The notes beneath the pieces were generated by a model. It did not search any database and was not told the origin of the DNA. It saw only the letters and a list, made by a program, of their open reading frames with translations. DNA of 59,738 nucleotides. It comes from Chloroflexia bacterium (lineage in GTDB: Bacteria > Chloroflexota > Chloroflexia > Thermomicrobiales > CFX8). Location: positions 1 through 59,738 of the forward strand of contig JAUIIK010000011.1 of the NCBI GenBank assembly GCA_030431755.1, in the 5' to 3' direction. This document shows positions 41,237 through 46,371 of this stretch, piece after piece (the stretch's first letter is position 1; the number at the start of each line of letters is the position of its first letter). A program made the translations under genes and the position numbers.

Positions 41237-42526
41237 TTAGGCTACCACGCCACGCTGATCCGACTGGCGGACATAGTCGCCGGAATCGACAACGTCGCGC
41301 AGGATCGCGACCGTGTCCCAGACATCGCAGAAGGATGTGTAGAGCGGGATTGGCGCGAGTCGCACGACGTTTGGCGGGCGGAAGTCCGGGATTACCCCGC
41401 GCTCTTTGAGGGCCGCATTGATTTGCGCGCCGTGCGGGTGCTCGATGGCAACATGGCCGCCGCGCCGGGTGTGCTCGCGCGGCGTTCCGATGCTGTAGCC
41501 GTATGGTTCCTGGTCCAGTCCGCGCTCTTCGACGAGCCGGATGAGATAGTCGGTAAGCTCCAGCGAGCGCTCACGCACCCGGTCGATCCCAACCTCGTCG
41601 AATATACGGAGTGAGCCGATGAGCGGCGCGGCGCTGAGAATCGAGAGAGTGCTGATCTGCCAGGCCCCAGCGGTTGCCGCGCCCTGCCACTCGTGGCTCA
41701 TGTCGAACTGGCGCGCTTTGTCATAGCCCCACCAGCCGGGCAGCGCCGGTTGGCGGTTGAAGTGCTTCCGATTGACATAGAGCGCGCCGACGCTGCCCGG
41801 GCCCGCGTTCAGATACTTGTAGTTGCACCAGAAAGCGAAGTCGACATCCCAGGCGTCGAACGCATGCGGAATCGACCCGGCGGAGTGGGCGCAGTCCCAG
41901 CCGATCAGGATGCCGCGAGCGTGCGCCTCACGGGTGAGCCGTTCGATGTCGAGGAGCTGTCCGCTGCGGTAGAGCACGCTTGGCAGGAGCACGAGCGCGA
42001 CATCCTCGGTCATAGCGGCGACGACGTCGTCCTCGTTGATTGTGCGGCCGCCGACGGAGCGGACCTTGACGAGATCCCGCTCTGGTTCGCCGCCATTGGC
42101 CGCGATCTGCGCTTCCAGAGCGTAGATGTCAGATGGGAAGTCGAGCTCGTTGACGATGATCTTGCGCCTGGTTCCCATTGGCTCATAGAAGGTCGCGACG
42201 AGCGCGTGGAGATTGACCGTTGTGCCGCCGGTTACGATGACCTCGTCGGACGCCGCGCCGACCATGTTGGCCATGCGATTGCCAAGCTCTTCGCCGAGAT
42301 AGAACCAGGGCGGGTCGGCGTTGAGCCAGCCATCGATCCCGAGCGTCTTCCAATCGTGCAGGGTCTTGTGGACAGCTGCTTCTGCATCGCGGGAGAGGAG
42401 TCCGAGGGAGTTGCCGTCCATGTAGTAGACGCCATCCTGGACGTAGAAGCGCTCGCGTATGGCCGCGAAATCGTCGCCCGTATCTCGTTCGATGGCCGCT
42501 GCCCGACCATCTCCGTACCCGATCAT
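41237..42526 (-). CDS. kynU: Kynureninase
   Basis: PLP enzyme that cleaves kynurenine (or 3-hydroxykynurenine) to anthranilate (or 3-hydroxyanthranilate) and alanine, in tryptophan breakdown. 429 residues from the ATG at 42526. Motifs: YYMDGNSLGLL, VTGGTTVNLHAL, GWDCAHSAGS, PLP Lys in WCNYKYLNAGPGS, GWWGY, and the C-terminal RLAPIPLYTSF. The start overlaps the stop of the formyltransferase-like gene by four bases (ATGA). Tryptophan dioxygenase and a classical kynurenine formamidase are not in the window. Confidence 0.95.
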   Translation of the reverse strand: MIGYGDGRAAAIERDTGDDFAAIRERFYVQDGVYYMDGNSLGLLSRDAEAAVHKTLHDWKTLGIDGWLNADPPWFYLGEELGNRMANMVGAASDEVIVTGGTTVNLHALVATFYEPMGTRRKIIVNELDFPSDIYALEAQIAANGGEPERDLVKVRSVGGRTINEDDVVAAMTEDVALVLLPSVLYRSGQLLDIERLTREAHARGILIGWDCAHSAGSIPHAFDAWDVDFAFWCNYKYLNAGPGSVGALYVNRKHFNRQPALPGWWGYDKARQFDMSHEWQGAATAGAWQISTLSILSAAPLIGSLRIFDEVGIDRVRERSLELTDYLIRLVEERGLDQEPYGYSIGTPREHTRRGGHVAIEHPHGAQINAALKERGVIPDFRPPNVVRLAPIPLYTSFCDVWDTVAILRDVVDSGDYVRQSDQRGVVA

Positions 42527-43464
42527 CGCATCGTGTTCCCTTCGTGTGCCAAGGTGGCCGGTGAAACTAGCCCGGTTGGGCTTGTGGCTGCGTCTGAGTC
42601 GAATGGTGTCACAATGAGCCAACCATCCAAGAATCGTAGCGCGATGAGTGGCGGCGGCAAGCGTGGCTCGCCGCATACGGCGGCTGTCCAGCCATGGACC
42701 GTGCCGATAACCAGCCTCTGACCACCTGGGCGTGGATAGTATGGGTGGCTGCGGACAGCGATGCCCTGGGCGAAGTTCATGGCGTGCTGCGCCGTCCAGC
42801 CAGCGTCGAGTGAGAAGTCATCGGGGCGTGGATGACGCGCCCACGTTGACTCGGTGTTGGCCTGATCGGTGTGAGCTGCCGCGCCGGTTAGCAGTGCCGC
42901 GAGCGATTCCAGTAGCAGGCTGGCCCCGAGGTTTGCCAGGAGACCGTCAAGCTCTGGCTCGGCGATGCCGTCCGGCTTTGGGATGGATGCTTGCCTGATG
43001 ATCGGCCCGGCATCGAATCTATCGGAGAGTGCGTGGACGGTCGCTCCTACGAGCCGGTCGTCGTCGCGAAAGACCCAGAAGAGCGGATCAGGTCCGCGTT
43101 TCTGTGGCAGCACCGACGGGTGGAGGTTGATGCCGCCGCAAGCGCGCTCGGCGTAGACTGCGGCCGGGATCAGTCGGTTGTAGCAGGCGACGACGACGAC
43201 ATCGGCGGAAACTGTTACGAGCTCATGCTGGACGTCGGGGTTGTCAAGATCGCCAACGCGCCAAACCTCGACCCCGTGAGCGCCTGCGAGCGCGGCAACT
43301 GTTGGAGCTGGCGTTGCGCCCATCGGGAGCATCCTGCGCCGACCGGTCTTATGTAGCGGAAGTGTCGGGCGGCCCGGCAGGCAGACGAGCCCGATGTTGA
43401 CTCGCGCCTCCAGCAGTGTCGCAAGGACGATCCGAGTCGTCAAGCAATCGAGGCCAAAGAGCAT
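42523..43464 (-). CDS. Formyltransferase-fold protein, coupled to kynureninase
   Basis: 313 residues. Resembles methionyl-tRNA/formyl-group transferases: catalytic-type Asn in CYNRLIP, His in INLHPSVLPQKRG, and Asp in SDRFDAGPII, then a short C-terminal barrel (RSHPYYPRPGG). Length equals Fmt, but the folate loop is divergent, so it is probably not the housekeeping Fmt. Translational coupling to kynU suggests an activity on formyl groups in the kynurenine pathway, which is inference. An ATT codon at 43473 would restore the usual MRVMLFG-like N-terminus; otherwise the ATG at 43464 trims the first strand. Confidence 0.8.
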   Translation of the reverse strand: MLFGLDCLTTRIVLATLLEARVNIGLVCLPGRPTLPLHKTGRRRMLPMGATPAPTVAALAGAHGVEVWRVGDLDNPDVQHELVTVSADVVVVACYNRLIPAAVYAERACGGINLHPSVLPQKRGPDPLFWVFRDDDRLVGATVHALSDRFDAGPIIRQASIPKPDGIAEPELDGLLANLGASLLLESLAALLTGAAAHTDQANTESTWARHPRPDDFSLDAGWTAQHAMNFAQGIAVRSHPYYPRPGGQRLVIGTVHGWTAAVCGEPRLPPPLIALRFLDGWLIVTPFDSDAATSPTGLVSPATLAHEGNTMR

Positions 43465-43559
43465 GACGCGAATGTCGTTGAGGCCTGATGGTAGAGTTGG
43501 CTCGGGCGTTTCCAGTGGGCCTACCGTTCGGTCCGATTGAGTGAGACGAGGTCATACGC

Positions 43560-43859
43560 ATGGCTCGCACCGTGATGTGCGTGAAACTCGGGCGCGAGGC
43601 GGAGGGCTTTGATGCGCCGCCGTTTCCGGGTGAGTTCGGGCTGAAGATCTTCGAGAATGTCTCGCTCGATGGTTGGGAGCTCTGGAAGCAGCACCAGACG
43701 ATCCTGATCAACCATTACGGCCTGCACCCTGCCGACCCTGAAACGCGCAAGATGCTGCGTGCGGAAATGGACGAGTTCTTCTTCGGCGAGGATGCGCAGC
43801 TCCCGGAAGGCTGGACGCCGCCACCGGCCGGAGCGGCGGCTGCCCCACGCAAGAAGTAG
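43560..43859 (+). CDS. yggX: YggX-family Fe(II)-trafficking / oxidative damage protection protein
   Basis: 99 residues, clearly YggX: RTVMCVKLGREAEG with the conserved Cys7, PPFPGEFGLKIFENVS, HQTILINHYGL and FFFGED. In enterobacteria YggX protects Fe-S enzymes from oxidants. The C-terminal 20 residues (Pro/Ala-rich, ending in basic residues) are extra. GAGG precedes the ATG. Divergent from the formyltransferase-kynU genes and convergent with the ATP-grasp gene. Confidence 0.93.
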   Translation: MARTVMCVKLGREAEGFDAPPFPGEFGLKIFENVSLDGWELWKQHQTILINHYGLHPADPETRKMLRAEMDEFFFGEDAQLPEGWTPPPAGAAAAPRKK

Positions 43860-43865
43860 GCCACG

Positions 43866-44237
43866 CTAGCTCGTCGCCATCGAGATCATCGGCGCGATGT
43901 CGAACTCCAGTTGTTCGTGAGCAGCGCGTAGCGCCGCTTCGACCGTCACCGGCGACTCACCTTTCGCAAAGATAAAACCCAGATAGCTCGAACCTTCAGG
44001 CAACGGCTGGATCGGGTAGTTGAGCTTGGCGGTGATCTCTACGCCCGCAATGCCCTCTACCGCAGCAGCTACCTCGACGCCGGCGATGCGTCGCAAGAGC
44101 CCACCGCGCGGGATGGGAATCATCATTACCCCAACCGCGCCGCCGCTTCGTTCGAAGGAGCGGATCGGTAGGCCGGCAGCCTGGCGTAGGATAAGTTCTT
44201 CGAGGCTCGTCCCGGAGCCAAACTCGAGTATCGTCGC
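43866..44237 (-). CDS. C-terminal domain of the ATP-grasp protein, in frame beyond a UGA
   Basis: 124 codons that continue the reading frame of the ATP-grasp gene directly after its UGA. The product (ATILEFGSGTSLEELILRQ, then MMIPIPRGGLLRRI, LPEGSSYLGFIFAKGE and AALRAAHEQL) fits the C-terminal region of L-amino-acid-ligase-type ATP-grasp enzymes (LAL_C2), including the segment just after the UGA. So the gene has lost only one sense codon. Without readthrough, this part could be made only by reinitiation at the ATG pair at 44126/44123 after GGGG, which would lack the first 37 residues. Confidence 0.75.
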   Translation of the reverse strand, partial: ATILEFGSGTSLEELILRQAAGLPIRSFERSGGAVGVMMIPIPRGGLLRRIAGVEVAAAVEGIAGVEITAKLNYPIQPLPEGSSYLGFIFAKGESPVTVEAALRAAHEQLEFDIAPMISMATS

Positions 44238-44240
44238 TCA
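44200..44240 (-). other. In-frame UGA with SECIS-like hairpin (candidate selenocysteine codon)
   Basis: The UGA is 44240-44238. On the RNA, 23 bases after it, a six-base loop CGGGAC is closed by GGCTC/GAGCC (44219-44215 with 44208-44204) and, below a four-base bulge, by TCGA/TCGA. Bacterial SECIS elements lie directly 3' of the UGA with the apical loop 16-37 bases away and a G in the first two loop bases; all of this is met. Such small hairpins also arise by chance in GC-rich DNA. Confidence 0.4.
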
Positions 44241-45113
44241 CAAGCCGCCGATCGACCGGCCGGCGATCTCCAGCAACCACGCCCGTTCGTCGAAGATGCG
44301 TAGCTCCGCATGAATCGGGCCGTTGCGTAGCCCGAGTGCAGCCGCGGCCGCGGCTGTCTCCTCGGCGATACGCTGTTGGACGACTGGCGAGTGGCGCGAC
44401 GGGGTGACATAGATCGTCTCCTCGAAGAAGGGGCCTTCGAGTGGATCGGGCTTATCGAATATCGCCAGGATTTGGACCTCTCCACGATCAACGACGCCCT
44501 CGACGGCAACCTCGCTCCCGGGCATGTACGCTTCGATGAGTAGCGCCTGGTCGGATACGGCTTCTGCCACCAGTAGTGAGCGCACGCGCTGCGTGGCGGC
44601 GGTGAGTTCAGCGTCACTGTTGACGCGGATGACCCCGCGACTGCCGGACATCGCGCGGGGCTTCACGACGGCGGGATACCCCACGTCGTGAGCCTGCGGT
44701 GTGGGATCTTGCCCGGGTTGAATCAGCGCGAAGGCGGGGCACTTGACGCCAGCGCCGCTAAGCATCGAACGCATGACAAACTTGTCCCGGGCAGCTTCCG
44801 CCGCGCGCGGGTCGTTCGCTGGCAGTCCGATGCGTTCGCTCGCGACAGCCGCCAGCTGGGTCGCCGCGTCGTCGACCGAGAGGACTGCCGCCAGCGGCGC
44901 GCGTGCGTGATAACGGGCGATCCAATCGGCGGAGTTTGCGATGTCACGGAAGTCGATCGTGTCCCGATGCTGGCGCGCCGTCGCCATCTCATCCGGCTGA
45001 TCGAAGACCGGCACGACGTCGATATCCAAGCGCCGGGCAGCGCGAGAGAATGCCTGTCCCCGGTAGCTGGAGGGCGAGATCAGCAGCATGACGCGCGGTC
45101 GCTCAATTGTCAT
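44238..45113 (-). CDS. ATP-grasp ligase, N-terminal and catalytic part up to an in-frame UGA
   Basis: 291 residues to the UGA; with the continuation 415. ATP-grasp features: pre-ATP-grasp strand VMLLISPSSYRG, VLSVDDAATQLAA, NDPRAAEAARDKFVMRSML, ATP-binding YPAVVKPRAMSGSRGV, LIEAYMPGSEVAVEG, and the metal-binding strand GPIHAELRIF..WLLEIAGRSIGG. The family forms peptide-like bonds using ATP; BacD-type L-amino acid ligases share the architecture. The gene starts 16 bases after an MFS carrier gene, as bacD is paired with bacE. The break falls at the position that reads Cys in homologues as I remember them. Confidence 0.82.
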   Translation of the reverse strand: MTIERPRVMLLISPSSYRGQAFSRAARRLDIDVVPVFDQPDEMATARQHRDTIDFRDIANSADWIARYHARAPLAAVLSVDDAATQLAAVASERIGLPANDPRAAEAARDKFVMRSMLSGAGVKCPAFALIQPGQDPTPQAHDVGYPAVVKPRAMSGSRGVIRVNSDAELTAATQRVRSLLVAEAVSDQALLIEAYMPGSEVAVEGVVDRGEVQILAIFDKPDPLEGPFFEETIYVTPSRHSPVVQQRIAEETAAAAAALGLRNGPIHAELRIFDERAWLLEIAGRSIGGL

Positions 45114-45129
45114 CGCTGCGTCCTTGCAG

Positions 45130-46371
<1,242 letters not shown>

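Follow-up and report, generated by a model that had tools for sequence, protein, structure and literature searches.

An in-frame UGA at the invariant cysteine of an ATP-grasp ligase gene in a selenocysteine-using Chloroflexia genome: recent nonsense change, base error or selenoprotein?

Results

An ATP-grasp ligase frame carries one internal UGA

The window analysed here, a stretch of 59,738 bp, is one whole contig of a draft genome (5.1 Mb, 272 contigs, 97% complete). On its minus strand an open reading frame of 416 codons (45113..43866) is interrupted by just one UGA, codon 292 (44240-44238), and ends in TAG. An earlier note on this DNA had given this frame with the same coordinates and codon count, and had placed an ATP-grasp domain before the UGA and the C-terminal domain of the same protein family after it, in frame. 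The domain search agrees, with ATP-grasp_4 (100 bits) and ATPgrasp_N upstream of the UGA and LAL_C2 (51 bits) downstream. The read-through translation thus has ATP-grasp_4 followed by LAL_C2 in the correct order across the UGA, as is required of the ATP-grasp/LAL_C2 family; the invariant Cys of RSIGGxC that marks the subfamily is replaced here by the UGA. Two frameshifts that cancel each other close to the UGA were rejected as an explanation, the codons matching those of relatives one to one. The gene, its parts and its neighbours are as follows.

44241..45113, minus strand: N-terminal 291 codons, ATPgrasp_N and ATP-grasp_4, ending ...EIAGRSIGGL
44238..44240, minus strand: in-frame UGA (codon 292), in the column of the family's invariant Cys
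43869..44237, minus strand: C-terminal 123 codons, frame unchanged, remainder of the ATP-grasp fold and LAL_C2, not decayed
43866..43868, minus strand: terminal stop TAG
45130..46371, minus strand: MFS transporter, immediately upstream of the ligase gene (about 17 bases between)
43560..43859, plus strand: YggX-type Fe(2+)-trafficking protein, a conserved neighbour in relatives
42523..43464, minus strand: formyltransferase-fold protein, a conserved neighbour
41237..42676, minus strand: kynureninase, a neighbour in one same-family genome too

The E..R motif of ATP-grasp enzymes binds metal and phosphate. The UGA lies in the loop directly after this motif, a structural placing taken only from a profile alignment of nearly the whole length to the L-amino acid ligase BL00235 (PDB 3VOT; profile positions 24-407, E 1.7e-57). 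This nearest solved relative has the same two-domain layout and shares the E..R..GG motif region, but lacks a Cys at the place equivalent to the UGA. The best NCBIfam match was the argininosuccinate lyase fusion PRK02186 (NF002563), through its N-terminal ATP-grasp part (residues 60-406); the ligase lacks the lyase domain, and its score of 136 bits is far under the 625-bit cut-off.

The gene is a syntenic orthologue and its downstream half is undecayed

The ligase gene is a syntenic single-copy orthologue, with no other close copy in its own genome and an orthologue in 45 other genomes of the order, mostly at 50-57% identity. Four relatives were inspected, three from the same taxonomic family and one from a different family within the order. 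In each of them the YggX and formyltransferase genes are neighbours of the orthologue, and in one kynureninase is too. The clustering of the ligase with YggX, formyltransferase-fold and kynureninase genes (41237-46371), with the YggX and formyltransferase genes as conserved neighbours, hints at a common pathway.

After the UGA only one of 41 conserved columns deviates (S293A), against 7 of 98 before it, all of them conservative. The identity of the post-UGA part to same-family genomes is 0.61-0.65, compared with 0.65-0.80 among those genomes. On these figures the downstream half has not decayed, which leaves two readings: that it is still translated, or that the UGA is very recent or an error. 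The N-terminal part evolved somewhat faster here, with an identity of 0.51-0.52 as against 0.58-0.69 among same-family genomes; FdhA of this genome shows no such shift.

The UGA replaces a strictly conserved cysteine and was found in no other homologue searched

The UGA had been read in the earlier note as standing for Cys, on the strength of a family motif (SIGGLC, RALRFG, SLEELILR). The relatives bear this out: their sequence runs ..AGRSIGGLCSTILEFG..SLEELILR, RALRFG is found in the more remote members, and the Cys is invariant in all homologues read. A sense Cys codon is present at the site in 29 of the 29 members of the order that were read, and also in a frameshifted copy (30 in all). In a phylum-wide draw all 49 other family members have a sense Cys there, 45 of them outside the order. 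The family motif is E-x-A-[GA]-R-S-I-G-G-x-C, and the usual context of the Cys is RSIGGxC[SA].

We then searched for the DNA pattern encoding A-G-[RS]-x-I-G-G-[LF]-UGA. Among 61 genomes of the order it occurred only at the site described here; across about 85,000 GTDB species it gave 22 matches, all due to chance and without family context; and in viral contigs it gave none. A family search in 201 genomes of the phylum, a set without a congener, likewise found an internal TGA nowhere but in this gene. Taken together, the order, phylum and GTDB searches, with no congener among the genomes, yielded no UGA-containing homologue in another Sec user. Because no congener was among the genomes searched, the UGA could be common to unseen close relatives. 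Sense codons in the relatives with no UGA elsewhere had been named in the earlier note as an outcome that would refute its reading, and this is the outcome observed in all relatives that were read.

Four stop-containing candidates were set aside. Those of G122 and G179 (TGA) and of G218 (TAG) end in ordinary terminal stops, and the orthologue of G011, with three TGAs, is a frameshifted copy. This last gene (L057, G011:C42) is broken over several frames, with the Cys kept at the site.

The probability that a random single-base nonsense change in these genes lands on this Cys codon is approximately 1.1% (5.8% of the changes that give TGA). The position of the stop at this codon exceeds chance.

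The genome and its order use selenocysteine

The genome contains selA (427 bits), selB (318 bits, a 632-codon frame) and a tRNA-Sec with anticodon UCA (78 bits), together with selD, which has an in-frame TGA, and fdhA, with a TGA in ..CNRT*HAPS... The lack of selB and selC, which the earlier note had held to be fatal to a selenoprotein, is therefore not the situation here; selA, selB, selC and selD are all present. With this full machinery the cell could insert Sec here if the mRNA signals for it. Two bona fide selenoprotein genes are located elsewhere in the genome.

C193:780-2648 (L114): FdhA, NRT-U-HAPS, SECIS with a GGU loop
C13:10733-11668 (L053): SelD, STAG-U-ASK, SECIS with a GGU loop

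In both, as in the ligase gene, the in-frame UGA is at a Cys position, and in SelD it is likewise followed by GCG. Their stems of 5-7 bp close GGU(N)CU loops and they have UGA-containing homologues; the ligase gene has neither such a loop nor such homologues. Within the order, UGA-containing SelD is present in most genomes and UGA-containing FdhA or FdnG-type proteins in many. In three genomes of one genus (G010, G019 and G056), formate-dehydrogenase-like matches contain an in-frame TAG. Genes for tRNA-Arg(CCT) and tRNA-Pro(CGG) lie just upstream of selA (L061, C26:14147-14388).

The hairpin after the UGA is at background level

The earlier note had proposed a SECIS element on the basis of the following hairpin.

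44204..44219, minus strand: hairpin GGCTC-CGGGAC-GAGCC, loop 44214-44209; SECIS candidate, at background level and without the GGU loop of the clade

The geometry it described is correct, the loop starting 23 bases after the UGA with C and G as its first two bases; its reading of the hairpin as SECIS found no such support. In the published bacterial model the apical loop is small, lies 16-37 nt from the UGA and carries G in its first two bases, with G or U frequently coming next (PMC13188914). The ligase hairpin satisfies this loose model, as do 893 of the 1645 TGAs in the window (54%), 71% of synonymous resamplings and 20 of the 29 Cys-coding orthologues.

As a reference for the clade we used 54 Sec sites of the order (29 SelD, 5 FdhA and 20 FdnG-type; loci L085-L113, L129-L132 and L156-L175). 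All 54 that were read have a GGU(N)CU apical loop, a rule tighter than the published bacterial consensus. Requiring a stem of 5 bp, and GGU at positions 2-4 of the loop that it closes, recovers 47 of the 54 known sites and only 14 of the 1645 background TGAs (0.9%). The ligase site fails it, having GGG in the loop CGGGAC and no GGU within 60 nt after the UGA. When the third loop base is relaxed to any base, the ligase site passes, as do 5.5% of background TGAs. A stricter SECIS form (5-bp stem, loop of 5-8, GG at loop positions 2-3) is likewise satisfied by the ligase site and by 4-5.5% of background TGAs, and by none of the 29 orthologues. The 54 sites stem from two or three independent families, so SelB itself may tolerate more loops than the GGU rule of this sample allows.

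Folding of the 45 nt after the UGA, a check that had been suggested alongside the SECIS proposal, gave a structure no more stable than shuffled sequences in the ligase gene (z +0.09). The corresponding z values in this genome are -2.4 at the FdhA site and -0.9 at the SelD site.

Discussion

The UGA is probably a recent nonsense change or a base error

We consider that a recent nonsense change or a base error probably accounts for the UGA. The Cys codon would recently have changed to UGA, either because the sampled population acquired a nonsense mutation or because the draft consensus contains a base error, and Sec would not be inserted. If the UGA acts as a stop, the product would be 291 residues long, an ATP-grasp fragment lacking LAL_C2. 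Both the cause and the recency of the codon change are inferred. We favour an accidental stop because a SECIS of the clade's type is missing, because no UGA-containing homologue was found in Sec-using relatives, and because Sec is rare in ligases; the relatives, being Sec users themselves, could have shared a Sec form. Against it stand the position of the stop, which has a probability of only about 1.1% by chance, the completeness of the Sec machinery and the stricter hairpin form, which is present here and in none of the 29 orthologues. The undecayed downstream half would fit an accidental stop only if the change is very recent or an error.

A few nonsense changes or consensus errors are common in a draft genome. 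Since each has a chance of about 1% of falling on a conserved Cys, we estimate that roughly every tenth or twentieth genome should hold such a stop, and that this rate is similar to or above that at which new selenoprotein families are encountered in Sec-poor genomes. A codon-bias scan of 443 kb of the draft found no clear interrupted gene; the scan has low power, and the ligase gene was not flagged by it either.

Selenocysteine and other ways of passing the UGA

A new selenoprotein is a tentative reading, to which we give a probability somewhat below that of an accidental stop or base error. SelB and tRNA-Sec would decode the UGA via the weak GGCTC-CGGGAC-GAGCC element, and Sec would have replaced the active-site Cys in one lineage. 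What speaks most strongly for Sec is that the UGA takes the place of an invariant Cys. The full set of Sec genes, the two further selenoprotein genes, the normal constraint on the downstream half and a hairpin within the published consensus (PMC13188914) all point the same way. The GGG loop, however, is not the GGU(N)CU of the 54 sites of the order, the folding energy is not below that of shuffles, and the order, phylum and GTDB searches gave no UGA homologue. The UGA-GCG context is that of the SelD genes of the order, and S293A beside the UGA was considered as a sign of co-evolution, but we give these little weight because Ala follows Cys in 6 of 49 Cys-containing homologues. That Sec occupies the active-site loop of this carboxylate-amine-ligase-type enzyme, decoded with a SECIS loop unlike the GGU loops of its clade, is less likely than not.

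Decoding of the UGA by another route (an opal suppressor tRNA, general reassignment of UGA or leaky readthrough) would likewise hold the downstream half under selection. We think it very improbable, as tRNA-Sec alone has the anticodon UCA among 41 tRNA genes plus tRNA-Sec (tRNA-Cys has GCA and tRNA-Trp CCA), and many open reading frames in the window end in UGA. Gene fission, in which the halves would be separate functional polypeptides with reinitiation after the UGA, could draw on an in-frame ATG at 44126, but is the least probable of all, since this ATG comes some 37 codons after the start of the conserved downstream part, its product would lack the SLEELIL segment, and no relative is split at the UGA site.

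Relation to known selenoproteins

The earlier note knew of no selenoprotein in this protein family, and the 2026 selenoprotein catalogue (PMC13188914) indeed contains no ATP-grasp family. Neither that catalogue nor the deep-Sep paper (PMC12013277) mentions ATP-grasp or any ligase, and a literature search found no paper linking ATP-grasp with selenoproteins. Deep-Sep reports orphan candidate selenoproteins such as DUF523 (PMC12013277), which, like the ligase, come from Sec users, show UGA where a Cys is conserved and have no other UGA homologues. In the DUF523-type candidates, however, a SECIS was judged to be present (PMC12013277), whereas the ligase lacks the clade-type GGU loop and matches the loose model at background level.

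If Sec is inserted, this would be the first ATP-grasp ligase known to us among selenoproteins, the catalogue having none (PMC13188914); it would point to a redox or nucleophilic function of the invariant Cys of the family, and would show that a relaxed SECIS is used in this clade. If the UGA is a nonsense change or a base error, it serves as a caution that a UGA at a conserved Cys followed by a hairpin, in a Sec user, is insufficient to identify a selenoprotein. Either way, the strictly invariant Cys of this ligase family is of biochemical interest.
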